Shown one piece after another: positions 6,764 through 62,685 of a DNA stretch of 64,000 nucleotides (positions are counted from its first letter, which is position 1; each line of letters opens with the position of its first letter). Under the pieces are notes generated by a model that worked only from the letters and a program-made list of their open reading frames with translations, searched no databases and was not told the DNA's origin. The position numbers and the translations under genes are program-made. This DNA comes from Peribacillus simplex (lineage in GTDB: Bacteria > Bacillota > Bacilli > Bacillales > DSM-1321): positions 62,001 through 126,000 of the forward strand of contig NZ_FTMX01000003.1 of the NCBI RefSeq assembly GCF_900156045.1, given 5' to 3'.

Positions 6764-6781
6764 GCAATCTTCCCCCTTTTT

Positions 6782-6811
6782 GTGGTTCTATAATAGAACC
6801 ACTGGTTCTTA
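6782..6811. promoter_or_regulatory. Three-half-site operator of the hyu operon
   Basis: A perfect palindrome has arms GTGGTTCTA (6782-6790) and TAGAACCAC (6794-6802) around TAA. A third copy of the half-site, TGGTTCTT, follows directly at 6803-6810. The site covers roughly +3 to +33 of the predicted transcript. A palindrome plus one direct repeat is the arrangement known for PcaU/PobR-type IclR regulators. Binding by the downstream IclR protein is inferred. Confidence 0.65.
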
Positions 6812-6820
6812 ACTAGAAAT

Positions 6821-6849
6821 ATATTAATTTAACAAGTTAGAATTGTCAA
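6821..6849 (-). promoter_or_regulatory. Sigma-A promoter of the hyu operon
   Basis: Read on the minus strand, TTGACA (6849-6844) is separated by exactly 17 bases from TAATAT (6826-6821). Transcription should begin near 6814, just ahead of the operator and about 50 bases before the hyuA ATG. Confidence 0.75.
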
Positions 6850-7288
6850 ACTATTTATTATTCATTCTTTTTTGGCTATTAAAACTTCCCTTGTATCTTC
6901 GAAAAAAACCTTATATCAACCTTCCGACTGCCTCTAGCTGTGGGAAAAACCGAACTATCACCCGGACACTATAAAAAGAACTTGATTCAGGCATTATCTA
7001 AGGAAAAATAAGAATGGCCTATGCCCGCTTGAGGAAAATTGGCAAGGCAGGTGACCCCAATAGATTTTCTAAGAGAATTTTAAAAAACTCGAAGTTGGAT
7101 AAGAGAGCGATAGTAATGTAGCATATCCTAAGCTGGTCGGGCTGATAATATGGAAATGCGGTCTGGGCACGCGGGGCGTTTCGCTGAAAAAGGGGAGAAC
7201 TGAAAAATTCGGCGCCTGACTCCAAAGAACTTGGGGACAGGGCAGCCGAATTGATGGAATTTTATTTATTTCAAATCAAAACGGCAGT
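6850..7288. other. Intergenic region with no convincing gene
   Basis: About 440 bases without a supported gene. The minus-strand frame at 7019-7225 lacks a ribosome site and resembles no family known to me. GGCGCCTGACTCCAAAGAAC followed by TTGGGGACAGG near 7210-7240 resembles short GGGGACAGG-type intergenic repeats seen in other Bacillaceae, but there is no second copy here to confirm it. Confidence 0.4.
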
Positions 7289-47483: not shown

Positions 47484-47824
47484 TGGAACTTTTAATGGCC
47501 ATTGTCATTGGAATACTATTTATGTGTGCGACATATTTAATGCTTTCCAAAAGCATTTTAAGAATCATAATCGGTACTGGTCTGCTCAGTCACGGCGCCC
47601 ACCTTTTGATTTTGACGATGGGCGGTTTGAAAGGCGGTTCCGTTCCATTGCTGAGTGATGAAGCTGCATCCTATGTCGATCCGCTTCCGCAAGCGCTAAT
47701 CTTGACGGCGATCGTCATCAGTTTCGGGGTCACATCATTTCTGCTGGTACTTGCTTATCGGACCTACCAGGAACTCGGTACGGATGACATGGAAGAAATG
47801 AGAGGTACGGAAGCGAATGAATAA
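47483..47824 (+). CDS. mrpC: Na+/H+ antiporter subunit MrpC
   Basis: 113 residues, three membrane helices, homologous to Nuo[19 protein letters not shown] and the conserved [21 protein letters not shown]. It overlaps mrpB and mrpD. Confidence 0.95.
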
Positions 47825-49298
47825 TCTTACTTTCATGCCTGTTTTATGGCCGCTTTTCACAGGCATCTTTCTCATTTTCTTTGCAAAAAAAATCAAGCTG
47901 CAAAGAGGGATATCCCTTTTTTCCTCTCTTATGGGAATTGCGATTTCCCTTTATCTGGTGTTTACGGTCCATACTCAAGGGATCTTGACTTTAGGTGTCG
48001 GCAGCTGGGACGCGCCATTCGGGATCGTGATCGTCGCAGATATGCTTTCTTCACTGCTGGTACTGACCACGAATATCATTGGATTGGCCATACTGCTGTA
48101 CTCGTTTCACTCCATAGGGGAGGAACGTGAAAGACATTATTATTATCCTGTTTTTCAATTTTTGCTGATTGGTGTAAACGGTGCCTTCCTTACGGGGGAT
48201 CTTTTCAATCTATTCGTTTTCTTCGAAGTCATGCTGATGGCTTCCTACGTGCTGCTTGTACTGGGAGGGACGAAAATCCAGCTGAGGGAATCATTGAAGT
48301 ATATCATCGTCAATGTGCTTTCCTCTTCCTTTTTCGTCATCATGGTGGCGTACCTTTATTCAGTTCTAGGAACATTGAACATGGCAGACATCAGCCAAAG
48401 GATAGCGGAAGTCCACCAGCCTGGAATCGTCTCGGTGATAGCGATTGGCTTTCTGATCGTATTCGGTTTGAAGGGAGCCATTTTCCCGCTCTTCCAATGG
48501 CTTCCTGGGTCCTATTATGCTCCACCCATTCCAGTGATGGCCCTATTCGGGGCATTGCTGACAAAGGTCGGGATATATTCCATTTTCAGGAGCTATACAA
48601 TCATGTTTTATCATGACCAGGATTTCACCCATACTTTCCTTGCGATACTTGCAATCTTGACCATCATCATCGGTGTCATTGGTGCGATAGCTTATTGGGA
48701 TGTAAAAAAAATCATCATTTACAATATCATCATCGCAGTCGGGGTTATCCTGTTCGGCATCTCCGTCATGAATGAACAGGCTTTATCAGGCTCCATTCTA
48801 TATATCATTCATGACATGCTGATCAAGGCTGCACTCTTCCTGCTGGTGGGAATCATGATCAAAATCAGCGGATCGGATGATTTACGGGACATGGGCGGCT
48901 TGATCAAGCAATACCCGGCCGTTGCATGGACCTTCTTCATAGCCGCCATATCATTGGCTGGTATCCCTCCGTTCAGCGGTTTTGCCGGCAAGCTCCTGAT
49001 TCTTCAGGGAGCTGCCGAAAAAGGGGCCTACCTTGGAATGGCCATTGTCTTACTTTCAAGTTTGATGGTCCTATATTCCGTCATGAAAATATTCATGAAT
49101 GGCTTTTGGGGAACTCCGAAAGCTGATTATGGCTTAACTAATCAAACGGTTAATCAAATGCTGGTCCCTGCCGTCATACTTGTGATCATTTCCGTTTTAT
49201 TCGGAGTGGGAACCGAATCGATTTACCCATTCATTACACAAGCTGTGGATTCATTAATGAATCCCGAAATCTATAACAAAGCGGTTTTAAAGGAGTAG
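47817..49298 (+). CDS. mrpD: Na+/H+ antiporter subunit MrpD
   Basis: 493 residues, about 14 membrane helices, NuoM/NuoN-like. Conserved proton-path segments: [40 protein letters not shown] (with the lysine and the broken helix), [16 protein letters not shown] and [15 protein letters not shown]. Eight-base overlap with mrpC. Confidence 0.95.
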
Positions 49299-49304
49299 TG
49301 CCTG

Positions 49305-49781
49305 ATGTCATTCCAAATTTTACTGAATGTGTTCCTTGCGGTTATCTGGATGTTTTTGAAAAATGAGTTTAACGGGAGCACTTTTATCATCGGATATATA
49401 TTGGGGCTAGGCATCATGTTCGTCTTCCGTCATTTTTTCAATGAACGTTTTTATTTGAAAAGGGTGAATGCCGTCGTTCTATTGCTCCTCATATTCGCAA
49501 GGGAACTCATACTTTCCAACATTAGCGTCCTTAAGGCCGTGCTTAAACCGAGCCTGGATATGAGACCTGGCATATTCGCATTTGAAACCGTGCTGACTAA
49601 GGATTGGGAAATTACGATACTATCAAATTTAATTACACTTACACCAGGAACACTTGTCGTTGAAGTATCAGAAGATAATCGGATTCTTTATATCCACGCG
49701 ATGGATATTGCCGACAAAGATGAGGCTGTGGACAGCATTAAGAATACATTTGAAAAAGCGATTATGGAGGTGGGCAAATAA
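49305..49781 (+). CDS. mrpE: Na+/H+ antiporter subunit MrpE
   Basis: 158 residues: N-terminal membrane helices and a C-terminal cytoplasmic part with ITLTPGTLVVEVSEDNRILYIHAMD, the family signature. Six bases after mrpD; its last base overlaps the mrpF start. Confidence 0.95.
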   Translation: MSFQILLNVFLAVIWMFLKNEFNGSTFIIGYILGLGIMFVFRHFFNERFYLKRVNAVVLLLLIFARELILSNISVLKAVLKPSLDMRPGIFAFETVLTKDWEITILSNLITLTPGTLVVEVSEDNRILYIHAMDIADKDEAVDSIKNTFEKAIMEVGK

Positions 49782-50065
49782 TGTTCGATCTAATGCTTAA
49801 AATCGCGTTGCTAGGTGTTTCGCTTTCCATGATTGGATTCTTATACCGTTTAATCAAAGGGCCTTCCGTACCGGATCGGGTCATCGCACTCGATGCAATG
49901 GGAATCAATCTTATCGCAATAGTTGCACTTGCCTCCATTGTCATGGATACAAGCGCATATCTGGAGGCCATTCTTCTGCTCGGGATCCTATCTTTCATCG
50001 GAACGGTCGCTTTCGCCAAATTCCTTGAGAAAGGGGAGATAATCGAAGATGACCGCAATCGTTGA
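49781..50065 (+). CDS. mrpF: Na+/H+ antiporter subunit MrpF
   Basis: 94 residues, three membrane helices: RLIKGPSVPDRVIALDAMGINLIA and TSAYLEAILLLGILSFIGTVAFAKF are the MrpF motifs. It overlaps mrpE and, by 17 bases, mrpG. Confidence 0.95.
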   Translation: MFDLMLKIALLGVSLSMIGFLYRLIKGPSVPDRVIALDAMGINLIAIVALASIVMDTSAYLEAILLLGILSFIGTVAFAKFLEKGEIIEDDRNR

Positions 50066-50387
50066 AATCCTATCGGCCCTATTCCTATTAATGGGAGTCT
50101 TTCTCTTTTTAGTCTCGGCTTTCGGCATCATCCGGCTGCCCGACGTCTATACCAGAAATCACGCTGCCTCTAAGAGCTCGACACTTGGAATCATGTTCAT
50201 CCTGATCGGCACCTTGTTATATTTTTACTATGAACATGGCCATTTCGATTTCCGGGTCGTGCTCGCGATCATCTTTATCTTCATGACCAGTCCTGTTGCC
50301 GGACATTTAATCATGCGCTCGGCTTATCATACTGGCGTAAAAATGTGGGATCGGAGTGTCCAGGATGATTTAAAGAAAACCCGGTGA
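50049..50387 (+). CDS. mrpG: Na+/H+ antiporter subunit MrpG
   Basis: 112 residues, three membrane helices. AFGIIRLPDVYTRNHAASKSSTLGIM and FMTSPVAGHLIMRSAYHTG are conserved MrpG segments. Last gene of the operon; a terminator follows. Confidence 0.95.
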   Translation: MTAIVEILSALFLLMGVFLFLVSAFGIIRLPDVYTRNHAASKSSTLGIMFILIGTLLYFYYEHGHFDFRVVLAIIFIFMTSPVAGHLIMRSAYHTGVKMWDRSVQDDLKKTR

Positions 50388-50399
50388 TCCCTGCCATGC

Positions 50400-50435
50400 A
50401 AAAGAGCTGCCCTGAATACAGGAGCAGCTCTTTTC
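50400..50435. terminator. Bidirectional terminator of the mrp operon and MOSC gene
   Basis: AAAAGAGCTGC-CCTG pairs with CAGG-AGCAGCTCTTTT around AATA. Confidence 0.88.
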
Positions 50436-50439
50436 TGTT

Positions 50440-51159
50440 TCAATCTTTTAAAAATACCTGGTCGCCCACTCTGATTTCACCTGTTTGCATGACCGAGGCA
50501 TATACGCCAAAATGATTGTTCCTTTCCTTGACGACAGTTTTCAGTAATGATGGATCTCTGTGTGAATCACTTGGATCGACAGTTATGATCATACAGCGCT
50601 CACAATGCCTTTTGATCTCCAATTCCACTTCATTTCCGATTAGAATCCTTTTTCCGAACCATTGCTCTTCTAAAAAGGGCGTTTTGTTCACTAAAGATAG
50701 CACCAAGTTTTGCCTGAATCTCCTGCCATCCAGCTCTTTTCCCCAAAGCTTTGACAATTCGCCAATCGAAGCATCACTGACAAGCAGGATGTTTTCTTCT
50801 TCAATCGCACCTAACGGAATATGTGCAGGATGATAAACAACTGGTGCTGCCTCCTGTTTCAACAACCGCTCCATTTCCTCCTGAAAGGCTTCCTCTCCCC
50901 ATGTCAGCACCTGTCCTGTTGGTGTCTTCACCTTGATTTCCGGATATTGGCCAAGGGTTTCCTCACCGGCAAAAGCAGCTTGATAACGGACCATTTCCGG
51001 GACTTGGGTTATCGTAAGGAACTTCCCATTTTTGCCTTTAAAGGCATGACTGCGATCTCCATATAGTCCATAATCCATCACCCTCGTTTTCTGTACCTGT
51101 TCACCAGTGAATGATTTTACAGGATGACGGGTGATTTCTTGTATATGACCAATCAGCAT
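50440..51159 (-). CDS. MOSC domain protein (YcbX/YiiM-like)
   Basis: 239 residues from the ATG at 51159, with AAAGAGG seven bases upstream; an earlier ATG at 51195 lacks a site. A beta-barrel N-terminal part (IGHIQEITRHPVKSFTGE, GLYGDRSHAF) leads into a MOSC domain with the conserved cysteine in KRHCERCMIITVDP, which would carry the transferred sulfur or bind molybdenum cofactor. The partner is unknown. Confidence 0.88.
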   Translation of the reverse strand: MLIGHIQEITRHPVKSFTGEQVQKTRVMDYGLYGDRSHAFKGKNGKFLTITQVPEMVRYQAAFAGEETLGQYPEIKVKTPTGQVLTWGEEAFQEEMERLLKQEAAPVVYHPAHIPLGAIEEENILLVSDASIGELSKLWGKELDGRRFRQNLVLSLVNKTPFLEEQWFGKRILIGNEVELEIKRHCERCMIITVDPSDSHRDPSLLKTVVKERNNHFGVYASVMQTGEIRVGDQVFLKD

Positions 51160-51257
51160 AAAAAAACCTCTTTTCATACAATAATCTTCTGCCATTTTAT
51201 AATTAAACCGGACATTGTAGAATCATTATCCAGCTTTATTGCGATTGTTCCTTAGAT

Positions 51258-51656
51258 TCACTTTGGCTTTGGTAAGTCGATAACGGCCAATGTACAGCGT
51301 GAAACGCAGATAAGATGATCCTCTTCATCACGGATTTTCACGTCCCACACCATCGTCGTCCTCCCGCGATGGATGATGTTCCCTTCTGCGGTAACAAAAC
51401 CGGAACGGACGCCCCTTACATGATTGGCATTGATTTCAAGGCCGACGACAGCTTGTTTTGCACTATCCACCAGCTGCATGCCGCCAAAACTTGCAACAGA
51501 TTCGGCAAGGGCAACGGATGCTCCCCCATGCAATAAACCATAAGGCTGCCTAGTCCGTTCATCCACAGGCATCGTTGCAATGACTTTCCCATCACCGACT
51601 TCTTTCATTTCTATCCCAAGCGTGCCTATCAATGACTTTTCAATATTTCTCTCCAT
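51258..51656 (-). CDS. yuxO: Hotdog-fold thioesterase YuxO
   Basis: 132 residues from the ATG at 51656 (GGGGG seven bases upstream). PaaI/MenI-type hotdog: QPYGLLHGGASVALAESVAS holds the HGG and the catalytic Glu, then VGLEINANHVRGVRSG. It hydrolyses acyl-CoA, possibly 1,4-dihydroxy-2-naphthoyl-CoA in menaquinone synthesis. In B. subtilis yuxO is between comA and mrpA; here it is on the far side of mrp and inverted, without comQXPA. Confidence 0.88.
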   Translation of the reverse strand: MERNIEKSLIGTLGIEMKEVGDGKVIATMPVDERTRQPYGLLHGGASVALAESVASFGGMQLVDSAKQAVVGLEINANHVRGVRSGFVTAEGNIIHRGRTTMVWDVKIRDEEDHLICVSRCTLAVIDLPKPK

Positions 51657-51731
51657 CCCATTACCCCCAACTCTCATGTTTTTTCTTGCCATGTACATCA
51701 AAAAAATGAATCACTATTCATATCAGTATAC

Positions 51732-51766
51732 AAAAAAAGGATGACCCAAGTCTATCAAGTCATCCG
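51732..51766 (-). terminator. Terminator of the ribA-ribD-FAD-HAD operon
   Basis: On the minus strand GGATGAC pairs with GTCATCC, followed by TTTTTTTG. It lies about 20 bases past the HAD gene stop. Confidence 0.78.
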
Positions 51767-51784
51767 TCAATAATGTGAATTGTA

Positions 51785-52348
51785 TTATTTGGAGAGGATT
51801 TCTTTTAATTCAAGCCAGCTTGTCAATCTTGGAATATCCAATTCCCTATTATAGGAGTTATCCATTGCATACACTTTCGTCGGAAGATCCAATAAAGTTT
51901 CCAGCACTGCCGGTTTATCATCAAAATAATAATCCAATTCCAATTTGCGGATCGTATCAATTTTTTCATGATCCTTCATACCGCAGTAAAAGTGGTCATC
52001 CTTAACCGGAAAGCCGTTTTCAATCAGCCATTTTTTCGTCCGTTCACCATGCTCAGCTTTTCTGGCGGTGATGTAATAGATTTCATGACCATCGCGTTCA
52101 AGCTCCTGCAGCGTTTCCACTGCGCCCTCGAAGGCTGGACAGGATGAATAATACACTTCCTCGGCAAGGCTGTTCCACATCTTGCCTCCAGCCTCTTTAT
52201 CAAGCCCGAAAGCTTCATGGATCTCCAAAGTCTTTAAAGCTCTGAATTTCGTTATCTCTATGTTCGTATTAAGCTTTTCATTATAAAGATGGAACGCGAA
52301 CTCCCTCAAGTTAATAAGGGTATCGTCAATATCAAAACCGAATTTCAT
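51785..52348 (-). CDS. HAD superfamily 5'-nucleotidase-like phosphatase
   Basis: 187 residues from the ATG at 52348 (GGGAG eight bases upstream). HAD motif I is FDIDDT (D6, D8), motif II ITARK and the acidic motif IV YYFDDKPAV. It resembles the NT5C/YqfW nucleotidase group. It is the last gene of the GTP cyclohydrolase-RibD-monooxygenase unit, 15 bases after the monooxygenase. A role in dephosphorylating a ribityl- or ribosylaminopyrimidine made by its neighbours is inferred from context. Confidence 0.85.
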   Translation of the reverse strand: MKFGFDIDDTLINLREFAFHLYNEKLNTNIEITKFRALKTLEIHEAFGLDKEAGGKMWNSLAEEVYYSSCPAFEGAVETLQELERDGHEIYYITARKAEHGERTKKWLIENGFPVKDDHFYCGMKDHEKIDTIRKLELDYYFDDKPAVLETLLDLPTKVYAMDNSYNRELDIPRLTSWLELKEILSK

Positions 52349-52363
52349 ATCCTTCACTCCCAT

Positions 52364-53461
52364 TCAAACATAAGCGGCGGCAAACTGTGATGCGAAGGAA
52401 ATTTCCTTGTCCACCTGAATGGCCTGTAATCTTTCAATTTCGGCTTTTCTTTTTGGCTCAGCCATTTTAAGCCCAAGGAAACCAATATCCCCCTGCCGGA
52501 TGCATCCAGAAATAAGCTCGGCTAATATATCGGCATCCTTCATGGCACAATTGAGTCCAAACGCACCTGTAGGTGTCATCGTATGGGCTGCATCACCTAA
52601 TAAAGCAACGCCATCCTTTGTCCATGTTTCACAATAGCTGCTGTAAACATCCAATAAAATGAAGTCATGCCAAGAGCGGATATTTTCACTCACAACCTTT
52701 TTTAATTCAGGAAAGGCAAAAAGCAAATCTTCAATGAATGGCTCAAAATGCTGTTTTCGCAAATGGGGGAACGAACCATGTTCTATATTCCAGCCAATTT
52801 GGATGAAACCTCCAGACTGAGTGAAGAGGGCAACCTGTGAGCCATTGACCAATGCCATCTTGATCGAAGGCTTCCATCCCTCGGGGGCTGGAATTTTTGC
52901 CCACAGTAAATCATAACCATGATTTTTAATCACGACTGGAATCCCCGCTTTTTTTCGAACGATGGAAAATCTGCCGTCCGCTCCGATTATCAATGAACTT
53001 TGCACTTCCAGGTCATTTCCGCCATTTCGGGCCTTGACACCCGTAAAACGGCCCATTTCATTCTGTATCAAGTCCGTAACCCTCGTATTCATCATCAATT
53101 GAAAAGAGTCCAGCTTTTCGGCTTCATTCAATATAGCTGTAAGCAGATGATTTTGAGGGACATGTATACCAACATGATCGACAGGCCATTCAGGGAAAAT
53201 CCTTTTGAATATTTGGCCGTCATTCCAATATTCAATTTGTTCCATCCTAAGCAAGCCTAGTCTTTCCACACTCTCGAATAAACCATGCTTTTTAAGAATG
53301 CCCTCTCCTTCTTCGTTCAAGAACTCGCCCCTGAACTCCCTTGAAACCTCAGAATGCCTCTCAAGCAATACGACTGAAATGTCCTGCTTGGCCAATAGGT
53401 AGGCCAGCAGGGCTCCTCCAGGTCCTGATCCGACTATGCATACATCTGATTTAACCAACAT
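52364..53461 (-). CDS. FAD-dependent monooxygenase (UbiH/PHBH family)
   Basis: 365 residues. Rossmann motif GSGPGG (11-16) with LERHSEV, the DG motif GADGRFSIVRKKAG, and the GD motif GVALLGDAAHTMTPTGAFGLN. It should hydroxylate an aromatic or heteroaromatic substrate with NAD(P)H and O2. AGGTGA lies six bases before the ATG. It sits 17 bases after ribD in a riboflavin-type operon where a monooxygenase is not part of the standard pathway. Confidence 0.88.
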   Translation of the reverse strand: MLVKSDVCIVGSGPGGALLAYLLAKQDISVVLLERHSEVSREFRGEFLNEEGEGILKKHGLFESVERLGLLRMEQIEYWNDGQIFKRIFPEWPVDHVGIHVPQNHLLTAILNEAEKLDSFQLMMNTRVTDLIQNEMGRFTGVKARNGGNDLEVQSSLIIGADGRFSIVRKKAGIPVVIKNHGYDLLWAKIPAPEGWKPSIKMALVNGSQVALFTQSGGFIQIGWNIEHGSFPHLRKQHFEPFIEDLLFAFPELKKVVSENIRSWHDFILLDVYSSYCETWTKDGVALLGDAAHTMTPTGAFGLNCAMKDADILAELISGCIRQGDIGFLGLKMAEPKRKAEIERLQAIQVDKEISFASQFAAAYV

Positions 53462-53478
53462 GCCTCTTCACCTGTTGT

Positions 53479-54579
53479 CTATTTTAATTTAGGATAAGCC
53501 GTGATGCGTATGTCCTCGCCAAACGTTTCCACGCCAGAGAAGGAAACATCCATCGCTTCATCCATCGTATCCACATTCATTCCAGTAAACGGTGTTAATG
53601 AGTTTCTTCCGCCCAATAGTTTAGGGGCTATATATATCAAGTATTTATCGATGAGCCCTTCCCTAAGGAAAGAGGCATTCACTTCGCTTCCGCCTTCCAG
53701 CAAGACATCCGTAATCCCCTTTTTATACAGCTCTTCCATCAAAGCCCTTAGATTCAGTCCCGTCTCGTTTTTGGGGACGAAAATGAATTCGATCCCTTTT
53801 TCACGTAATAGGTTTAATTTATCCGCAGGTGCATTTTCCTGCGTTACGATCAAGGTTTTCGCATCTGATACTTGTACAACATTGGCATCCAAGGGAACCC
53901 GTAATTCACTGTCTAAAATGATCCGCACCGGATTTTCCCCTCCGCCCTCCGGTAGTCTGGTCGTCAGTGATGGATCATCGGCCAATACTGTCCCGATACC
54001 AACAAGAATGGCATCCACCTCATCACGGAGCAAATGAACGGAGTGACGTGATTCTTCCCCTGTTATCCATTTTGAATGGCCTGTGTGAGTTGCAAGTTTT
54101 CCATCAAGCGTCATCGCATACTTCGATATGACAAATGGACGATTCGTGAGCATATTGTGAATGAAACGCTCATTCAGCCTTTGTGCTTCCTTTTCCAGGA
54201 TGCCAACTTCCACTTCAATGCCCGCATCCTTTATGATCGATATCCCTCTGCCGGCCACTTCCGGATTCGGATCCTGAGTAGCCACAACAACTCTTCGCAC
54301 ACCTGATTCTTTCACCAAATTTGCACAAGGAGGTGTCTTTCCATAATGGGAACAAGGCTCAAGAGTCACATATAGCGTTGCACCTTCTGCATACTCACCA
54401 GCCATTTTGAAAGCATGTACTTCCGCATGCGGTTCACCCGCTTTACGGTGGATTCCTGTCCCGGCTATCACACCGTCTTTGACTATGACTGCACCGACCA
54501 CTGGATTCGGATTCGTCTTTCCTTTTGCACTGGCCGCCAAATCCAGTGCCAGCTTCATGTAATATTGATCATCATTCAT
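53479..54579 (-). CDS. ribD: RibD: pyrimidine deaminase/reductase
   Basis: 366 residues from the ATG at 54579, with AAGGAGA eight bases upstream. The deaminase domain (1-145) has HAE (51-53) and PCSHYGKTPPC (C76, C85) as zinc ligands. The reductase domain follows, with KYAMTLDGKLATHTGHSKWITG and VLADDPSLTTRLP. Both steps convert diaminohydroxyphosphoribosylaminopyrimidine to 5-amino-6-ribitylaminouracil phosphate. Thirteen bases after the cyclohydrolase gene. Confidence 0.95.
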   Translation of the reverse strand: MNDDQYYMKLALDLAASAKGKTNPNPVVGAVIVKDGVIAGTGIHRKAGEPHAEVHAFKMAGEYAEGATLYVTLEPCSHYGKTPPCANLVKESGVRRVVVATQDPNPEVAGRGISIIKDAGIEVEVGILEKEAQRLNERFIHNMLTNRPFVISKYAMTLDGKLATHTGHSKWITGEESRHSVHLLRDEVDAILVGIGTVLADDPSLTTRLPEGGGENPVRIILDSELRVPLDANVVQVSDAKTLIVTQENAPADKLNLLREKGIEFIFVPKNETGLNLRALMEELYKKGITDVLLEGGSEVNASFLREGLIDKYLIYIAPKLLGGRNSLTPFTGMNVDTMDEAMDVSFSGVETFGEDIRITAYPKLK

Positions 54580-54592
54580 ACTATAGCTCTCC

Positions 54593-55342
54593 TTATACAA
54601 TCAAAGTTGGCTTCTTTTGGGGAATATGTCCAGACTTCTTAACCTTTGTATCCAGATAGAAACTATTATCTTCCGTCAAACCGCCCCAAAGCGGAATATG
54701 GTCCTTTGCCGCAAGTCCATGCTTCATGAGGGCGTCCAGCTTTTTCGGGTTGTTCGTGATTAATGTCACCGGATCCTCGCGCAGTTCGCTCAACACGCGA
54801 ATGGCTCCCTCGTAAGATCGCGTATCATCTTCGAATCCTAAAGCCTCATTCGCCTCGACCGTGTCATAACCCTCCTGCTGAAGCAAATAGGCAAGTGATT
54901 TGGAAAACAGGCCAATCCCTCTTCCTTCATGGTCTGCAAGGTAAAAGATGGCCCCGCACCCATGCTCGGCTATCATTTTCATCGATTGGTGGAGCTGGTA
55001 GCCGCAATCACAGCGTTTACTGCCGAAGATATCACCTGTGTGACAGATGCTATGCATCCGGACAAGTGCATCCCCCGAATTCTTAAAATCCCCATACACC
55101 AATACGGAGGATTGCTGTCCAAAAGCGAGGTTGGCTTCCGAAAGCGAATCAAGCACCGCTTCCTTGTCATTGTCCGCGCCGTCAAGCTGAAGCCATGTAT
55201 ACCATTGGAAAACCGTTGAGAAATCTCCTTGTTCAACAGGCAGGTTCACAGGTCCAACAAGACATATATCAGCTTTCCCCGGGGTTTTGATGATATTCAT
55301 TTTATCTATTAAAAGGTTTTTTGTTTCTTCGGTTATTTTCAT
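54593..55342 (-). CDS. ribA: GTP cyclohydrolase II
   Basis: 249 residues. A stand-alone cyclohydrolase: no DHBP synthase domain is fused, unlike RibBA. About 75 N-terminal residues precede the catalytic part with zinc ligands C100, C111 and C113 (SICHTGDIFGSKRCDCGYQL), DHEGRGIGLFSKSLAYLLQ and VTLITNNPKKLDAL. The usual RQEGRGIGL reads DHEGRGIGL. It opens GTP to the first riboflavin-pathway pyrimidine. It is the first gene of the operon and has a good sigma-A promoter, but no FMN riboswitch. Confidence 0.92.
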   Translation of the reverse strand: MKITEETKNLLIDKMNIIKTPGKADICLVGPVNLPVEQGDFSTVFQWYTWLQLDGADNDKEAVLDSLSEANLAFGQQSSVLVYGDFKNSGDALVRMHSICHTGDIFGSKRCDCGYQLHQSMKMIAEHGCGAIFYLADHEGRGIGLFSKSLAYLLQQEGYDTVEANEALGFEDDTRSYEGAIRVLSELREDPVTLITNNPKKLDALMKHGLAAKDHIPLWGGLTEDNSFYLDTKVKKSGHIPQKKPTLIV

Positions 55343-55368
55343 GTTAACATCACCTATTTTATAAATTT

Positions 55369-55459
55369 ATAGTGTGTCTTCTCCTTACTTTAGGTAAGTA
55401 AGTATATTACTATACACTATACCTGTCAATGAAGCAGTTTACAAATAATAGTGTGTCTT
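55369..55459. repeat. Direct repeats flanking the rib promoter
   Basis: ATAGTGTGTCTT occurs at 55369-55380 and 55448-55459, on either side of the promoter at 55401-55429. A related inverted half, ACACTATACC, lies in the promoter spacer. The arrangement suits a regulator that loops or blocks the promoter. Confidence 0.6.
55401..55429 (-). promoter_or_regulatory. Sigma-A promoter of the ribA-ribD operon
   Basis: On the minus strand TTGACA (55429-55424) is 17 bases from TATACT (55406-55401). The ribA ATG is about 60 bases downstream. Confidence 0.78.
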
Positions 55460-55599
55460 TGATCATAATTTTCAAGAAGTTTTTGGTGCATAAGAAAGGT
55501 CATTCACAAACCGCTATCATATCGGCTGGCCTTTATACATATTTTAACGTATAACGAAAACGTGTCTATAGACAGACCTAAGGAAAGGACGGAAACCTT

Positions 55600-55995
55600 T
55601 TGGAGGATTTCCCTTATTTTTTATATGACCCTATCCTATTTCCGCCTCGCGCCGGGGCAATGAATATGAATCGGGGACGGGAAGGAGCATTGCGCCCCTA
55701 CTCGGCACCCAATCCAGATCTGCTGGTTAAATCGGCAAAGACCTCGCAATCTTTAATGCTTGATGTAAAAAAGGTCATGGATACTTTAGCCACATCCAAA
55801 CCTTTCTCGAACCGGTTGATGACTGCTGCCCAAGCATCGCAAAAGAGTGTCGTGATCGATATGATCCGAAAGATAGGAATTACCAACGAACCTGATATCA
55901 CGTATAACCCCGATGGAATCCGGTTTGATTTCTATCCTAAAGCGGGGGAAGAAAATTGTCATATCATCGTCAGCTTGAAATGGAGGGATGTATAA
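55600..55995 (+). CDS. Protein of unknown function
   Basis: 131 residues from a TTG at 55600 with AAGGACGG seven bases upstream. A proline/aromatic-rich start (MEDFPYFLYDPILFPPRAG) is followed by a polar, helical middle (LMLDVKKVMDTLATSKPFSN) and a C-terminal strand (CHIIVSLKWRDV). No signal peptide or membrane helix. I do not recognise the family. The leader contains an AAAGGTCA/TGGCCTTT stem near 55496-55533 and the palindrome GTCTATAGAC near 55564. Confidence 0.65.
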   Translation: MEDFPYFLYDPILFPPRAGAMNMNRGREGALRPYSAPNPDLLVKSAKTSQSLMLDVKKVMDTLATSKPFSNRLMTAAQASQKSVVIDMIRKIGITNEPDITYNPDGIRFDFYPKAGEENCHIIVSLKWRDV

Positions 55996-56013
55996 CGTCC
56001 AGCACCTTTTGGT

Positions 56014-56043
56014 AAAAAAACCGAAGCCTATTTTCGGCTTCGG
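56014..56043 (-). terminator. Terminator of pepA
   Basis: On the minus strand CCGAAGCC pairs with GGCTTCGG around GAAAATA, followed by TTTTTTT. Confidence 0.85.
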
Positions 56044-56054
56044 AATATTTGGGT

Positions 56055-57560
56055 TCATCTTGTTTTCGTTTCAAAGGTTTCAACCAATAGTGCAAGCGTT
56101 CGTGCCATGACACCGGTAGCCCCTGCCGTGCACAATTCGGAGCTGCTCGAGGTTGTTGAAGTTCCGGCAATATCCAGGTGCACCCACGGTGTACCTTCAG
56201 CAAATTCGCCGATGAAGGCCCCGCCCATGATCGCATGTCCTGCCCCTCCAGGTGAATTATTCAAATCCGCTATTTTACTATTGCGTACCCGTTCTTTATC
56301 CTTTTCTGTAATCGGCAATCTCCAAATGGGCTCCCCGGCCTCCTCTGAAGCTTTGACCACTTGTTCATAGAATTCCGTGTCATTTGTCATTGCACCCGTC
56401 ATATCCATGCCCAGTGCCGTTATTACACCACCCGTTAAAGTGGCAACGTCAATAAGATAGTCAGCACCATGATGTTTAGCGTAAGTCATGGCATCCGCCA
56501 AAACCAGCCGGCCTTCCGCATCCGTATTCAATACCTCTATCGTCTTGCCGCTCATGGCAGTGATCACATCATCCGGCTTGAATGCATCACCGCTGATCAT
56601 GTTATCAGTGGAAGGAATGACAGCCACGACATTTTGATCCGGTCCTAATTCGCCGATAATTTCCATTGCACCTAAAACTGCTGCCGCACCGCCCATATCC
56701 GTCTTCATCCCAACGATTCCAGCCTTCGTTTTCAATGAGTATCCACCCGTATCGAATGTGATGCCTTTACCGACCAGGCCGATAACATCCTTCCATTCAT
56801 CCTTACCTTGATACTTCAGGACGATCATTTTCGGAAGCTCAACCGAACCTTTATTGACAGCAAGGAGTGCGCCCATTCCCAACTTGAGCATATCTCCCTT
56901 CTCGAGTATCTCCACTTCAAAACCATAACGTTCGCCCAAGGCTGATGAATAATCCGCCAAATCCGTGGAAGTCAGCAAATTGCCTGGTGTGTTGACCAAT
57001 GTTCTGGCTGAGTTCGTCGCCCTTCCGAAGATTCTCCCTACATGAAGCGCGGCACCGACCTCTTCTTGATCATATTCACTGTAAACCGTAATCGATTCGA
57101 GGCTTTTTTCGACCTGGTTCGATTTTTGCTTGTATCCGTCAAATTTATAGGAAGCAAGTTCGAAAGCCTCGGAACAAGCGTGCGCTGCGTCCAATGCATC
57201 CAGATCTTCAGTCGAGAATGTATCCAAAGCGATCGAAAGAGTCGTAATCTTGGAATCTTCAATCGTCTTACGCGCTTTTCCCAACGCTTCGCGGAGAGTT
57301 TCAAAGGATAGCTCCTTTTCCTTGCCTAACCCTACGAAAATCAATCTCTTTACGCCTAATTTACCTAATGTATGTATTTTGACCACCGATTTTTTCCTGG
57401 AAGAGATTTCTCCGGCCTTCACTAACTCTGTTAGCTGGCCGTCCAATCGTTCATCCGCATCTTTTCCTATGCCTGTAAATTTTACGGGTCTGTCAAATAC
57501 GCCTAGAACCAGGCATTCGTCAATCAAATCTATATTCAGGGAATCTTTTACTGTGAACAT
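56055..57560 (-). CDS. pepA: M17 leucyl aminopeptidase
   Basis: 501 residues. The C-terminal catalytic domain carries all metal and active-site residues: [10 protein letters not shown] (K265, D270), KTDMGGAAA (D288) and NTDAEGRL (D347, E349, R351). The N-terminal part is the usual macro-like domain. A di-zinc cytoplasmic enzyme that removes N-terminal residues from peptides; equivalent to YuiE. Own terminator; divergent from yuiD. Confidence 0.96.
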
Positions 57561-57616
57561 TCTGCTACCTCCTCCATTCGATTACATTCATTATAACGAA
57601 ATCTTCAAAAATTTTC

Positions 57617-57761
57617 GAATAAGGCCCACGTAAATAATAATAAAAAGGGATATTGTTTAGAATGGGTGACTTTAGAGTAATAGTATAAGAAAGATCATAT
57701 TTTACTATTACCAGCAGGGAATCGACAGGACTGAATGGAACTAATAATAAGGGCCTTATTC
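57617..57761. repeat. Nested inverted repeats between pepA and yuiD
   Basis: Outer arms GAATAAGGCCC (57617-57627) and GGGCCTTATTC (57751-57761) are exact complements. Inside them GTAATAGTA (57677-57685) and TACTATTAC (57703-57711) are also exact complements. The whole could fold as a long structured RNA or mark a small insertion. No target duplication was found. Confidence 0.55.
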
Positions 57762-57829
57762 CGAGCAGGATGTATATACCCAGATATGGATTTCATCTTT
57801 ACTTATAACTAGAAAGAAGGCTGATACTC

Positions 57830-58312
57830 TTGGAATTATTACTCAACTTCCCTTTAATCGCAGCATTGATTGCCATCTTCTTTGCTCAATTCATTAAAGT
57901 GCCCATCCACTTCATAGCATTTCGTAAAGTGAACTGGTCACTCATTAACTCCACAGGCGGTATGCCAAGCTCCCACTCTGCGGCCGTGTCAGCCCTAACC
58001 GTAGCGGTAGGGATCGAAACCGGAATGGATTCCCCTGTATTTGCGGTTGCAGTGATCTTTGCAGTCATCACGATGTTCGATGCGACAGGAGTGAGACGGC
58101 AGGCAGGAGAACAGGCAGCCGTCTTGAATCAGCTCGTTACCGACTTCAATACTTTTGTCGAGCAGGCAAAGAACTGGCAGAAAAAGGAAGAGAAACAGAA
58201 ACAGCAACAATTAAAGGAACTGTTGGGCCATAAGCCAATCGAGGTATTTTTCGGAGCCTTGACCGGAGTATTCATTGCACTGGCACTTCACTTTTTCATC
58301 TTTCAAGGGTAG
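57830..58312 (+). CDS. yuiD: Divergent PAP2 family membrane protein YuiD
   Basis: 160 residues from a TTG at 57830 (AAGAAGG nine bases upstream). Four or so membrane helices; INSTGGMPSSHSAAVSALT and DATGVRRQAGEQAAVLN are the DUF212 signatures and resemble acid phosphatase motifs. A lysine/glutamine-rich loop precedes the last helix. Its stop lies nine bases before the next start. Confidence 0.93.
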   Translation: MELLLNFPLIAALIAIFFAQFIKVPIHFIAFRKVNWSLINSTGGMPSSHSAAVSALTVAVGIETGMDSPVFAVAVIFAVITMFDATGVRRQAGEQAAVLNQLVTDFNTFVEQAKNWQKKEEKQKQQQLKELLGHKPIEVFFGALTGVFIALALHFFIFQG

Positions 58313-58321
58313 GTGTTCAAT

Positions 58322-59110
58322 TTGAAAATAATCTCTCTTTGCCCCAGCAATACGGAACTATGCACATATCTAGGGATTGAAGATCAGCTGATCGCCATCG
58401 ATGACTACTCCGATTGGCCTGAAACCATTCAGCACCTTCCTAAGGTCGGGCCCGACTTATCAATCGACATCGATCATGTGGAATCACTAAAACCCGATTT
58501 GGTGCTGGCTTCGCTGAGTGTACCGGGCATGGAAAAAAATATTGAGGGGCTACAAGAACGGAACATCCCCCATATCATCTTCAACCCGCAATCACTTGAA
58601 GAAATCGCAAAAGATTTACTGACCTTGGGCGAAGCCATGGATCTTAAGGAAAAAGCGGAGGAACAGGCTGCCAAATTCCGTGATGCCATCCTTCAATATA
58701 AAAACGTCGCCGACAAAATCGAAACGAAGCCATCCCTGTATTGGGAATGGTGGCCTAATCCCTTATTCAGCCCAGGGGGAGTTAATTGGTTAACCGAGAT
58801 CAGCACGCTTGCGGGAGGATATAACCTTTTCGAAGATGTCGACATGGCCAGCATTCAAGTCACTTCCGAAGAGGTCCAAAAAAAGGATCCCGACCATATT
58901 TGCTTAGCGTGGGTCGGTGTCCCCTTACGAAAAGTAAACCCAGAGCTGGTCAAGAAACGGAAAGGGTGGACTGATATGAAGGCCGTCCGGGATAACAATA
59001 TTCATATCATGGAAGAACCATTATTTTGCCGGCCTTCCCCGCGTTTGCTGGATGGGCTTTCCAAATTGGCAAAGACCCTGCATCCTGAAGCCTACAAAAG
59101 CATGGCCTAA
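58322..59110 (+). CDS. Cobalamin-binding-like (BtuF fold) protein without signal peptide
   Basis: 262 residues from a TTG at 58322, with AGGTG six bases upstream; a GTG at 58313 is too close to that site. Two-lobed periplasmic-binding fold of the BtuF/FecB type: ISLCPSNTELCTYLG, DYSDWPE, VESLKPDLVLAS, YWEWWPNPLFSPGG. Secreted relatives have a lipoprotein signal; here the first strand begins at once, so the protein is cytoplasmic. It may bind a cobalamin-type ligand or another tetrapyrrole. Probably co-transcribed with yuiD. Confidence 0.82.
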   Translation: MKIISLCPSNTELCTYLGIEDQLIAIDDYSDWPETIQHLPKVGPDLSIDIDHVESLKPDLVLASLSVPGMEKNIEGLQERNIPHIIFNPQSLEEIAKDLLTLGEAMDLKEKAEEQAAKFRDAILQYKNVADKIETKPSLYWEWWPNPLFSPGGVNWLTEISTLAGGYNLFEDVDMASIQVTSEEVQKKDPDHICLAWVGVPLRKVNPELVKKRKGWTDMKAVRDNNIHIMEEPLFCRPSPRLLDGLSKLAKTLHPEAYKSMA

Positions 59111-59137
59111 GAGCGTCACAACTTAAACAGACAATCA

Positions 59138-59166
59138 AAAAGGCTGCCTCAATCGAGGCAGCCTTT
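59138..59166. terminator. Bidirectional terminator before yuiC
   Basis: AAAGGCTGCCTC pairs perfectly with GAGGCAGCCTTT around AATC. Confidence 0.9.
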
Positions 59167-59199
59167 CACCTTCACTTTCTCCGATTTGTCCATCAATCA

Positions 59200-59892
59200 T
59201 TAAAAAGCAAAGGAAGCTACATTCTCGTTCAATGTTTTCTCAGCGATTTTCGGCTTGAAAACCTGCTTGATCTTTGTTTCATTCAACTTGCTTAACTGTT
59301 CTTCAGATAACTCGCCATTCCCTTTTTGCACAACATATACTTCAAGGGTTTTCTTGCCCCAGTTCTCGTATACATCTTGTACCGTTTCGTAGTAAAGGTC
59401 CAGGTGGTTTCCTTTGATCGCACCACCCTTGTCCGCTACAACCCCATAGCCATACCCTGGAATCCAAAGGATGGTTCCGAGAGGGAATACGGCAAGATCG
59501 GCGGCAATGGTGGAAAACAGATCCCGTTTCACCTTCACCCCTGAATAAGTGATACCATAGGATGGGCTTTCCGGGTACTTTCCTGTCGATTCATACCCTG
59601 CTGTATATCCTGTAGCCAAAACTTCATGCTTCGGGTATTTCGAGAGCTCGATTGCCTCCGCTATCGTAGTGGGACCATTGCTCGTGGATGCCGATGCCAT
59701 TAGCGTTGCCACTTGACCTCCACTATGGATCGCTTTATATTCGAGACCAAGCATTCGATGTTGTCTCATTGCCTCTTCAAAAGGATGATCTTCAGGCATA
59801 GCCCCAAAAACATGATTTAAGGTTGATTCGATGGCCAAGATAAATAATATGATAATAGCAACCCTCAAAAATAATGCCTTTACAATCTTCAT
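59200..59892 (-). CDS. yuiC: 3D domain stationary-phase survival protein YuiC
   Basis: 230 residues from the ATG at 59892; AGAGGAG lies 14 bases upstream, a long spacing, but the upstream frame has no better start. One N-terminal membrane anchor or signal ([19 protein letters not shown]), then a 3D (three Asp) domain with [39 protein letters not shown]. YuiC-type proteins are lytic transglycosylase-like enzymes related to MltA and Rpf, active on cell wall. The MITE copy at 59990 is about 90 bases upstream. Confidence 0.9.
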
Positions 59893-59980
59893 ATGTATTA
59901 ATTCCACTCCTCTCACAAGGATATTTGTTCCCTTTCCAGAGTGAAAGTATTCATAAAGCATGGAAAGAACCAATTTTTCT

Positions 59981-60217
59981 TACAAAAAAGGCTCTTTTCG
60001 TAAAGATTGTTGTTTTTAAAACGAAACGATTTAAGGTTGATTGGAGCGGAAGTGCGAGACTCCTGCGGGAGCAGCGGGACAGGTGAGACCCCACAGGCGT
60101 TTACGCCGAGGAGGCTCACCGCCCGCCCCGCGGAAAGCGAGCATCTGGAGGGGAAATCAACCACACCGCACTACTTGGTAAATAGCAATAAAGTATGCGA
60201 AAAAAGCCTACAAAGAA
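59981..60217 (+). mobile_element. MITE-like element, copy 2, with near-perfect 9-bp target duplication
   Basis: The element is 59990-60208 (219 bp). Flanking 9-mers TACAAAAAA (59981-59989) and TACAAAGAA (60209-60217) differ by one base. Terminal inverted repeats are GGCTCTTTTCGTA and, inverted, GGCTTTTTTCGCA. The GC-rich core pairs as GGTGAG/CTCACC with an inner GGCG-TTTA-CGCC hairpin. It is in the opposite orientation to copy 1 and lies in the upstream region of yuiC. Confidence 0.85.
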
Positions 60218-60250
60218 AGGACCGTTCATAAATGACGGCCCTTTCCATTA

Positions 60251-60568
60251 TCAAAACATTTGATATCCTTTTTTCCTTAGAACCCTGATAACCACACCCG
60301 CTAAAACCGCGCCAAGCAGCCCGCTTGATAAAATAATGATGTCTGCCGTATGAAGGGATGTAAGGTTCGTTCCAAGATTGGAAAAAGAGATTCCCGGATT
60401 TCTAAAATATTCTATTAGCTTTGTTTCATTGACAATGATGATGAAGACGATTGGAAATAAGATGACCATGATCCACGAAGAACGAAAGAGCATATTCAGC
60501 AAAAAGCCAATTCCGAAAAACAATATGAAAAATAAGAGTATTGAGATAATTAAAACAGGCAATGGCAT
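60251..60568 (-). CDS. yuiB: Membrane protein YuiB
   Basis: 105 residues from the ATG at 60568, the same length as YuiB. AAGGAGGG lies 12 bases upstream. Three membrane helices: PVLIISILLFFILFFGIGFLLN, WIMVILFPIVFIIIV and the last near IIILSSGLLGAVLAGVVI. Function unknown. yuiA, its usual neighbour, was not found. Confidence 0.9.
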   Translation of the reverse strand: MPLPVLIISILLFFILFFGIGFLLNMLFRSSWIMVILFPIVFIIIVNETKLIEYFRNPGISFSNLGTNLTSLHTADIIILSSGLLGAVLAGVVIRVLRKKGYQMF

Positions 60569-60675
60569 GTTATTCTTGACCCTCCTTAAAAGCGACACCT
60601 TTAGTTTACTGAAAAAATAATTGCTGCGTCAACGACTTATACCAAATAATACCGAAGAAAAGATAATTACCCAAA

Positions 60676-61155
60676 TCACATGAATAACTTATATGATGTA
60701 TATCCAAATTGATCTCCCGGATTCAACCCGTCGAGCATTGTTTGCATTCTTTCCTTTTTAAAAGCTAAAAGCTGTTCCAATAGTAAAGATTGCTTCCCCT
60801 CCTGCATGAGTAAATCAGGGTCATAAAATTTTGCTTCATATAATTCATCCAATTGAGCGGTTACTTCAAAACTGACCGGTTTAAGTAAAAATATCAACAT
60901 ATTATCACTTATATCCCCTTTGATGACTCCGCTTCTCACTCCTACAATGCCTTCAATTTCTGTTTGAATGCCCGTCTCCTCCAACACTTCCCTTACGACA
61001 GCTTCATCGACGGTTTCATCATTTTTGACAAAACCTGCCGGAAGCGACCATTGTCCTTTCAATCCGCCATACCTTTTATTCACGACCAGCCACTCACCTT
61101 TATCAGATATCACAAGGCCGGACACTGCCAGCCAAACATTTTTGCATCGTTCCAC
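60676..61155 (-). CDS. NUDIX hydrolase
   Basis: 159 residues from the GTG at 61155; a TTG one codon earlier is possible. The NUDIX box is intact: GFVKNDETVDEAVVREVLEETGI matches GX5EX7REUXEEXGU in segments (GFVKNDE, REVLEETGI). It hydrolyses a nucleoside diphosphate linked to another group. Substrate not predictable. Confidence 0.92.
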   Translation of the reverse strand: MERCKNVWLAVSGLVISDKGEWLVVNKRYGGLKGQWSLPAGFVKNDETVDEAVVREVLEETGIQTEIEGIVGVRSGVIKGDISDNMLIFLLKPVSFEVTAQLDELYEAKFYDPDLLMQEGKQSLLLEQLLAFKKERMQTMLDGLNPGDQFGYTSYKLFM

Positions 61156-61318
61156 CAAAATCCACTTCCCCTACATTCATTATAATTAGTGTAAACTCCA
61201 AACAGCAGAAGAATATGCGATGGTGCCAAAGGTATGCAGCTTCGTCATCCTTATCCCCATTATATTCCATATAAGAAAAGTGCATACTCCACTATGGCAC
61301 ACGAGATGCCAATGAAAA

Positions 61319-61347
61319 GGCCATTCAGGGACGCTCCCCAAATGGCC
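61319..61347 (-). terminator. Terminator of yumB
   Basis: GGCCATT-CA-GGG pairs with CCC-CA-AATGGCC around ACGCT; the minus strand continues TTTTCATT. About 20 bases past the stop. Confidence 0.75.
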
Positions 61348-61368
61348 ATTATTTATATACCGAAAAAA

Positions 61369-62583
61369 TTAAAGGACGTTGAATTTACCTTTTTTAGCAA
61401 CAAGGGATGCTCCGCCAATCAATAACAATGCTCTGTTATCAACCATTTTCTTCATGAATGATGCAGTCTTACCTGTAACTTTCTTACCAAAGACAACACC
61501 AATCGCGTTGTCTTCACCAAGTGAACATACCGTTCCTTTGTTTTCGAAAGTGAACGTTTCAAGGTCGCTTTCATTACGAACCAATTTAGTCAGGTTCTTC
61601 GCAATGACCTCACCTTGCTGCATGGCGATTTGGGCAGTAGGTGGATATGGACGGTTAATTTCCTCGTTGATGATCAAAGCGCAATCCCCCACGATGAAAA
61701 TATCGTCATGACCCGGTGCCCGCATGTCAAGGTTCACTTTGATGCGTCCGCGCATAGCTTCAAAACCGGAAGCCTCTATCACGGAGTTTCCACGTACGCC
61801 AGCTGCCCATACGACGGTCCCCGCTTTGATTTCTTCCACTTCATCTTCGCCTTTTGCCACGATGATGCCTTCGGGAGTCGCTCCCTTGATCGGTGTACCG
61901 ATCTTGAATTCCACACCTTTTTTCTCAAGGTAAGATACTGCATAATCCACCAATTCCGGATCGAAGCCAGGGAGGACGGCAGGTGCTGCCTCCACACAGT
62001 ACATACGGACCTTTTGGAAATCGATGTCGTATTCTTTACAAAGTTCCGGGACACGGTTAGCCAATTCGCCAAGGAATTCGATACCCGTAAATCCTGCTCC
62101 TCCAACAACGATCGTCAAGCGGTCTTCATTCTTCTCGGCCTCAGTACTGTACGTGGCGAATTGCAATTGGATATGGTCACGGATTTTTCGTGCAGTGTTC
62201 ACATTAGAGATAGAGAAAGCATATTCTTTTAGCCCTTGGATTCCGAATGTTTCCGATTCCGGTCCAAGTCCAATCACTAAATAATCATAAGAAATTTCGC
62301 CGTTTTCAAGGATGACTTTTTTGTTCTCTGTTTTCACTTCCAAAACAGAGTCCTGGATGAATTTAACTTTACTGTTAATGACACTTTTGATTGGATAGCG
62401 CACACGATCATGATGTAGAGTTCCAGCGGATGCTTCATGCAGCCATGTTGTTTCATAGTGGTAATCATTTTTGTTAACTAATACGATTTCTGCTTCATTT
62501 TGACCTAATGCCTTCTGTAAGCGAGTAACAGTCATCAATCCACCATAACCTGCTCCCAAAACAACGATTGTTGGCTTTTTCAA
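61369..62583 (-). CDS. yumB: Type II NADH dehydrogenase-like protein YumB
   Basis: 404 residues from a TTG at 62583, with AAAGGTGG ten bases upstream; the longer frame lacks a site. Two dinucleotide-binding domains: [16 protein letters not shown] for FAD at the start and [19 protein letters not shown] for NADH near the middle. The quinone-side QQGEVIAKN region follows. It transfers electrons from NADH to menaquinone without pumping. A Rex-like box lies about 100 bases upstream. Confidence 0.94.
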
Positions 62584-62685
62584 AAGTATTCGTCCACCTT
62601 TACGATATTTTCTTGTGATGCTTTCCATAACTAAAATATATTGTCTATCATATTAATTTCCATTATAAAAAGCACTCTTATACAT

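Follow-up and report, generated by a model that had tools for sequence, protein, structure and literature searches.

A split riboflavin pathway in Peribacillus simplex: the GTP branch lies outside the FMN-riboswitch operon, with a predicted redox-type operator and a flavin monooxygenase gene

Most riboflavin biosynthetic genes of Firmicutes have been described as being under FMN-riboswitch control (PMC3766115, excerpt). A link to redox stress is on record for Escherichia coli, in which ribA, the gene for GTP cyclohydrolase II (GCHII), is induced under SoxRS control (Koh 1996, as cited in an excerpt of PMC6092379), and the regulators YodB, CatR and HypR sense HOCl, quinones and diamide through conserved N-terminal Cys residues (PMC6943732, excerpt). 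The present analysis concerns an operon in a 64,000-nucleotide stretch of Peribacillus simplex DNA (contig NZ_FTMX01000003.1, positions 62,001 to 126,000; hereafter the window). Its four minus-strand genes, at 51785..55342, encode, in this order, a GCHII, a RibD, an FAD monooxygenase (MO) and an NT5C-type HAD phosphatase (hereafter HAD). On the basis of the gene set, the single full RibD of the genome, the split of the pathway, the repeated linkage of the genes and a shared promoter box, all read from sequence, we consider it likely that this GTP branch of riboflavin synthesis is no longer controlled by an FMN riboswitch but by a redox- or electrophile-sensing repressor, through which it would be co-induced with a flavin-dependent hydroxylase.

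The genes are separated by 13, 17 and 15 bases (given the likely ATG starts of RibD and HAD), in agreement with the 13-17 bases reported in a first-pass annotation made from the sequence alone, and the four gene identities proposed there were confirmed by Pfam domains, all on the minus strand. The same annotation had placed the operon between one promoter and one terminator, and both were recovered, the promoter agreeing with the consensus at 11 of 12 positions and the terminator being a stem-loop (Table 1). The scan used yielded about as many sites in total as it did on shuffled sequences, and these two rest on their position and match quality. As had also been noted, the operon lacks an FMN riboswitch (no Rfam family reached the gathering threshold in the 64 kb, the operon leader included), and neither ribE, ribH nor a DHBP synthase gene was found among the window open reading frames scanned.

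The first two enzymes are of ordinary kinds. GCHII matched the Pfam family GTP_cyclohydro2 (2.3e-45) and scored above the NCBIfam cut-off of NF001591 and below that of TIGR00505. Its Cys100, Cys111 and Cys113, invariant in 15 sequences, align with C54, C65 and C67 of E. coli GCHII (2bz0) and are presumably zinc ligands. A change at the position of Tyr105 alters the GCHII product in Streptomyces; such a change was ruled out here, since a tyrosine that we take to be an active-site residue aligns with Y105 of 2bz0. Residues 1-75 form an N-terminal extension of ~75 residues common to stand-alone GCHIIs. This extension is something other than a DHBP synthase domain, and Pfam gives no match to it. 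RibD is a full two-domain enzyme, with RibD_C (1.3e-60) and a deaminase domain in Pfam, a score of 406 bits, above the NCBIfam equivalog cut-off of TIGR00326, and B. subtilis RibD (2b3z, E 1.1e-108) as its closest sequence in the PDB.

When the host genome (6.08 Mb in 31 contigs) was searched, four RibD_C matches were obtained, only the window protein being a full RibD; the other three sit in open frames of 183-201 aa. Two GCHIIs were present, both stand-alone, namely the operon copy and a lone paralogue. Two FMN riboswitches were found, on contigs C9 and C23, neither of them at the operon. One precedes ribE, a ribB whose 216-aa product is a DHBP synthase only, and ribH (locus L006; domains confirmed), while the other precedes the gene for the S component of an ECF-type transporter, which also matches the riboflavin family. 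The remaining genes of the pathway are thus grouped at L006, and the ribH there, the only one of the genome, lies on a different contig from the operon. No second route from GTP to 5-amino-6-ribitylaminouracil (5-A-RU) was visible in the genome searches made. Since the sole full RibD is in the four-gene operon and the riboswitch operon holds only ribE, ribB and ribH, the former must, on this evidence, be the GTP branch of riboflavin synthesis, with 5-A-RU as its likely product; and since no other route to 5-A-RU was visible, it must feed ribH. The first-pass annotation had suggested 5-A-RU, or a derivative, as the product rather than riboflavin. The first part of this agrees with the present result, but the second falls, the operon RibD being the only full one that the genome has. 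Nor was a complete ribDEAH operon found elsewhere, and the absence of any other capable rib operon, which had been named in advance as an argument against that suggestion, is what the genome presents as far as its sequence goes. A non-riboflavin pathway as the main function of the operon was rejected on the same ground; a modified pyrimidine may still be formed by MO as a by-product.

The same split was seen in relatives. A full RibD above the curated cut-off was present in 42 of 43 family genomes. In six of these 42 (G002, G012, G022, G032, G039 and G040) it lies in a canonical riboswitch operon with RibBA, and in the other 36 it adjoins a stand-alone GCHII, away from any FMN-riboswitch match. 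A close MO (at least 57% identity) was found in 24 of the 43 genomes, always within the 36 split operons, and directly next to RibD in 23 of the 24; in genome G004, HAD sits between the two. The gene order, the conservation of which had been proposed as a check on the operon, is not due to chance. Intermediate states were also found. Genome G004 carries only a fragment of RibD in the riboswitch operon, its full RibD being in a GCHII-RibD-HAD-MO operon. In the riboswitch operons of G016 and G033, RibBA is present and ribD missing. G022 combines a canonical operon with a GCHII-RibD-fragment-HAD remnant. The riboswitch operon of G004 (L151, G004:C16) is otherwise canonical, with RibBA intact. Among 53 further genomes, picked for carrying MO or HAD, exactly one full RibD was found in 52, Priestia abyssalis having two; RibBA was present in 31 and not in 22, as called by open-frame length (372 aa or more being taken as RibBA rather than stand-alone GCHII). 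In a RibD tree (76 of 92 rows after thinning, proteins of 330 aa or less excluded) the 7 canonical proteins fell on one side with support of 88/80, and the split proteins formed two clades, A and B, of 31 rows (100/100) and 38 rows (100/99); the deep order of the canonical, A and B clades is unsure because the branches are long. On this tree, the MO partner requires at least five changes on well-supported branches. Judged from gene order and riboswitch matches, the committed branch is outside FMN-riboswitch control in the host and in many of its relatives.

Evidence on the control of the branch came from the surroundings of MO. These were surveyed at the best 80 loci of at least 489 relatives, one genome per species, a sample that consequently leans to close relatives. 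MO and GCHII share a same-strand run at 53 of the 80, and a divergent gene of the HxlR family lies directly before the run at 22 of these 53, but at none of the other 27. Pfam confirmed the family for three regulators next to MO operons and for one next to a VOC-GCHII-RibD operon (L140). In the PDB, YodB was closest to the regulator tested (E 8e-29), their N-terminal Cys residues being aligned; the HxlR regulators of the related operons keep this residue at the YodB position. The HxlR-adjacent intergenic regions share a box with the core TTACATAAAGTAA, which follows closely downstream on a good -10 element. Across the 64 kb, both strands included, a 25-bp position weight matrix (PWM) trained on the 22 HxlR-adjacent loci of other genera (15 distinct boxes) gave a single match above 8 bits, and this match lies at the operon promoter (Table 1) and fits CTTACTTNNNTAAAGTAAG perfectly. 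The operon promoter is predicted, from this match, to carry an HxlR/DUF24-type operator. In Neobacillus jeddahensis (G454) and two Cytobacillus genomes (G455 and G456), the sole GCHII and the sole full RibD lie in an MO operon adjoining an HxlR gene; there, to judge by gene position, the committed branch itself is behind an HxlR-type regulator. In part of the relatives the committed branch seems to answer to a thiol-redox regulator.

The core was also scored in units without an adjacent HxlR gene, none of which had been used in PWM training; since the pattern was written after the upstream sequences had been inspected, this scoring was not blind. The core was present in 26 of 30 MO-GCHII-RibD units (0.10 expected from shuffles), in 12 of 28 GCHII-RibD units without MO (0.05 expected) and in 4 of 28 MO-only units (0.07 expected), and was found neither in 15 GCHII units without RibD or MO nor at 16 ribE operon starts. 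Units were cut at 200-base gaps; identical upstream stretches and those shorter than 100 bases were dropped, close relatives remain, and the background samples, drawn from the same loci, include true boxes. Among the 28 GCHII-RibD units, L261 belongs to the interior of an MO operon, and in L383 a small doubtful open reading frame stands between the unit and an HxlR gene (the count being 11 of 26 when both are left out), and L149 and L150 hold RibD remnants. Two of the 15 GCHII units carry HAD, and the 16 ribE starts represent 15 operons, L151 having been counted twice and L389 on ribE alone, its riboswitch unchecked. These counts bear on the simplest alternative, a plain rearrangement that brought the branch under another promoter without functional meaning, MO being a bystander and the box that of an unrelated local regulator. 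Such a history would fit the existence of a GCHII-RibD-HAD core operon without MO, often also without the box. Against it stand the linkage of MO and GCHII across gene orders and genera, 22 times beside the same regulator family, and the core box in 26 of 30 MO-GCHII-RibD units outside the training set, and we hold it to be decidedly improbable.

G316 and Priestia aryabhattai (G439) encode MO apart from GCHII-RibD, in a unit of its own, and in both genomes GCHII-RibD is near an HxlR gene; the box scores 15.9 bits at MO of G316, where GCHII-RibD has the core pattern only, and 14.8 bits at GCHII-RibD of G439. In L137 (G003), a VOC gene at 6534-7534 has its own box of 38.8 bits near a GCHII-RibD-HAD operon with its divergent HxlR gene, and its product may be a member of that regulon in its own right. 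The lone GCHII paralogue of the host (L007:6824-7588, C29:218925 region) is 58% identical to the window GCHII, and no box of 12 bits or more was found in the 14-kb stretch around it. Other GCHII units of this sort, with neither RibD nor MO, recur in the group.

MO matched the Pfam family FAD_binding_3 (PF01494, 1.3e-41). Its G11-x-G13-x-x-G16, D162-G163 and G289-D290, invariant in 12 sequences, are presumably the GxGxxG, DG and GD fingerprints of Group A flavoprotein monooxygenases. An AlphaFold2 (AF2) model (pLDDT 86.4) had as its best fold match the FMO of Bacillus niacini (8urc/8urd/8uiu; 31% identity and a TM score of 0.89 for 8urc). According to its title, entry 8urd contains bound 2,6-dihydroxypyridine. 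MO was found in 40 of 397 genomes of an order sample at E 1e-45, some of the proteins being merely 32-34% identical; the closest named loci among the best 80 are those of Bacillus sp. BA3 and Peribacillus frigoritolerans (94-96% identity). At the 53 loci shared with GCHII, the run also contains RibD in 45, HAD in 39 and a VOC-superfamily protein in 7. The order is GCHII-RibD-MO-HAD in Peribacillus, Lysinibacillus, Ureibacillus, Niallia and Solibacillus, MO-GCHII-RibD-HAD in Gottfriedia, VOC-MO-GCHII-RibD-HAD in Mesobacillus and Cytobacillus, and GCHII-MO or GCHII-MO-VOC in Halalkalibacter and Halalkalibacterium. The VOC protein belongs to the superfamily of ring-cleaving dioxygenases and has no match among solved structures; kinship to catechol dioxygenases is only suggested, its scores being far below the NCBIfam cut-offs. 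MO itself is most likely a co-regulated flavin-dependent hydroxylase with a small aromatic or N-heteroaromatic substrate. At L146 (G015, 5132-6231) MO is split into two overlapping frames, those of GCHII, RibD and HAD being of full length, which fits a dispensable MO or a sequencing error.

A more specific role of MO can be imagined in three ways. In a specialised pyrimidine or azapteridine pathway, MO (with the VOC protein in some species) would oxidise 5-A-RU or a relative of it to a secreted metabolite resembling toxoflavin or pseudoiodinine. MO is indeed tied to GCHII even where RibD is missing from the run (8 of the 53 loci), the ligand named in the title of 8urd has a uracil-like ring, and the psd cluster likewise encodes a VOC protein besides GCHII and RibD (PMC9911603, excerpt). 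GCHII and RibD homologues occur together in the window operon, as in clusters of the toxoflavin/pseudoiodinine type. However, the operon RibD is the sole full one and the ribE-ribB-ribH operon has none of its own, MO is absent from 12 of the 36 split operons of the family, and no methyltransferase, sulfatase-modifying-factor or WD-40 protein, the partners listed for such clusters in the same excerpt, was found among the 17 window proteins scanned (47817-62628). The comparison with toxoflavin pathways drawn in the first-pass annotation did not hold in this respect, a toxoflavin-like cluster was rejected, and a specialised pathway is, in our judgement, quite unlikely. Much the same is thought of damage control, in which MO (and VOC) would clear oxidised breakdown products of unstable GCHII and RibD intermediates and the HxlR regulator would sense them: the co-occurrence of MO and GCHII in differing gene orders, the repeated changes of the MO partner on the RibD tree and the mention of intermediate instability in an excerpt of PMC12051542 are in its favour, but many split operons lack MO, and MO also occurs in runs without GCHII (27 of the 80 loci). 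Slightly less unlikely, if still doubtful, is a third possibility, that MO oxidises 5-A-RU or the GCHII product and that the HxlR-type repressor senses quinone-like pyrimidine oxidation products. If true, flavin-precursor supply, electrophile signalling and a new oxidised pyrimidine metabolite would be connected in one self-sensing loop.

The last gene of the operon bears on the dephosphorylation of 5-amino-6-ribitylaminouracil 5'-phosphate (ARPP). HAD matched Pfam NT5C (5.6e-11), and its D11, D13, T15, T99, K134 and D148/D149, invariant in 16 sequences, are taken to be the HAD catalytic motifs. The best fold match of its AF2 model (pLDDT 92.7) was 3bwv; mitochondrial and cytosolic deoxyribonucleotidases were also among the matches, and HADs of the deoxyribonucleotidase type fit best. 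HAD was found in 50 of the 397 genomes of the order sample. Among the best 30 of these 50 matches, 29 adjoin a RibD match, which in one case is a fragment, and one adjoins GCHII only; outside the best 30, linkage to GCHII and RibD was seen in G055, G337 and G411. The order sample includes 16 genomes of the family; HAD is missing from four of them, namely those that have no rib operon other than the canonical one. On account of its operon context HAD is a good candidate, and judged from its linkage a strong one, for a dedicated ARPP phosphatase. The HAD phosphatases reported for this step in B. subtilis, E. coli and Arabidopsis are described as nonspecific, a dedicated enzyme had yet to be identified, and a histidine phosphatase was found for it in Aquifex in 2025 (PMC12051542, excerpt); the window protein differs from these in being of the NT5C type and in sharing an operon with GCHII and RibD, which makes the question of a dedicated enzyme directly testable.

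Several findings weigh against the reading favoured here. The window box scores 19 bits, compared with 31-40 for the training boxes. An HxlR gene beside the operon, common at related loci and not required, is absent, and no HxlR homologue was found in the 64-kb window, the rest of the genome not having been searched for one. Sixteen of the 28 GCHII-RibD units without MO have no core box, which means that the split branch is not under redox control throughout, and the core was found in none of six MO-GCHII units lacking both RibD and an adjacent HxlR gene. Three such units without the box (L300, L319 and L234) face a cupin/HTH regulator, identified with Pfam (cupin/HTH_3) at L234 and L319 (the latter under its second handle, L233) and with BLAST at L300; by the evidence of these neighbours, the GCHII-MO pair has changed regulator families there. 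With no GCHII in the MO run at 27 of the best 80 loci, MO chemistry need not involve the riboflavin pathway, and one HAD copy, in G223 (L242), is not next to rib genes.

Table 1. Features of the GCHII-RibD-MO-HAD operon in the window
Feature	Coordinates	Strand	Basis and remarks
Sigma-A-type promoter, TTGACA-17-TATACT	55401..55429	-	11/12 consensus positions; kept in Peribacillus upstream sequences
Predicted HxlR/DUF24-type operator, ACTTACTTACCTAAAGTAAGGAGAA	55379..55403	-	Overlaps the -10 end and start region; PWM 19.0 bits
Stand-alone GCHII, 249 aa, without DHBP synthase domain	54593..55342	-	Pfam, alignment
RibD, bifunctional (deaminase/reductase), sole full copy in the genome	53479..54579	-	Pfam, NCBIfam; likely ATG 54579
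FAD monooxygenase (MO), 365 aa	52364..53461	-	Pfam, NCBIfam, fingerprints, AF2 model
NT5C-type HAD phosphatase, candidate ARPP phosphatase	51785..52348	-	Pfam, motifs, AF2; likely ATG 52348
Intrinsic terminator, stem-loop then T tract	51739..51765	-	Promoter/terminator scan

Directly beyond the terminator, on the same strand, lies a gene for a hotdog thioesterase (51258-51701; best NCBIfam match MenI, below the cut-off), which adjoins the operon in 9 of 9 Peribacillus-group loci (L243-L251). The operon promoters of the same group also show TATAGTGT/ACACTATA-like repeats around the -10 element and further upstream (55350-55460 in the window; L243-L251), which were not seen by eye in the upstream sequences of other genera compared, and which are possibly a second operator.

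The preferred reading, a GTP branch under a redox- or electrophile-sensing repressor, can be set out as follows, the phosphatase substrate, the repressor with its signal and the role of MO being what we infer. GTP would be opened by GCHII, and its product deaminated and then reduced by RibD; HAD would most likely remove the phosphate, giving 5-A-RU, which would be converted to riboflavin by means of the FMN-riboswitch-controlled ribE-ribB-ribH. At the normal redox state, an HxlR/DUF24 repressor would occupy the box, covering the start region, and leaky expression would supply basal 5-A-RU. Because the operator is of the same kind as those of operons adjoining YodB-like HxlR/DUF24 genes, the operon would probably be derepressed by electrophile, quinone or disulfide stress, upon modification of the repressor Cys. 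Derepression would provide more 5-A-RU and more flavin together with the flavin-dependent hydroxylase and, in some species, the VOC protein. The split alters the genome-based prediction of flavin and 5-A-RU supply, 5-A-RU being the precursor of ligands of mucosal-associated invariant T (MAIT) cells, and it gives the MO family a defined genetic context.

The enzymes of the operon are of known kinds; what sets it apart is that the branch is separated from the riboswitch, that a redox-type operator is shared with related operons and that HAD is bound to the operon. No description of this split-operon arrangement was found in the open-licence PMC literature, subscription papers being outside the scope of the search. 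As regards the YodB, CatR and HypR regulons of B. subtilis, YodB is nearest to the regulators of the related operons, which share its N-terminal Cys, but the window box is tied to HxlR by the genes adjoining those related operons and not by published YodB or CatR boxes; to our knowledge, none of the MarR/DUF24 quinone and disulfide regulons of B. subtilis includes riboflavin genes. With B. subtilis ribDEAH the host shares the chemistry, and its ribE, ribB and ribH are still behind an FMN riboswitch; unlike in B. subtilis, its GCHII and RibD lie outside the riboswitch operon, GCHII and DHBP synthase are separate proteins, HAD and MO are additional, and the predicted operator takes the place of the riboswitch. 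The SoxRS control of E. coli ribA likewise links GCHII to redox stress (PMC6092379, excerpt), but in the operon described here the whole branch would be involved, along with a flavoenzyme, under a regulator of the HxlR/DUF24 family rather than SoxS.

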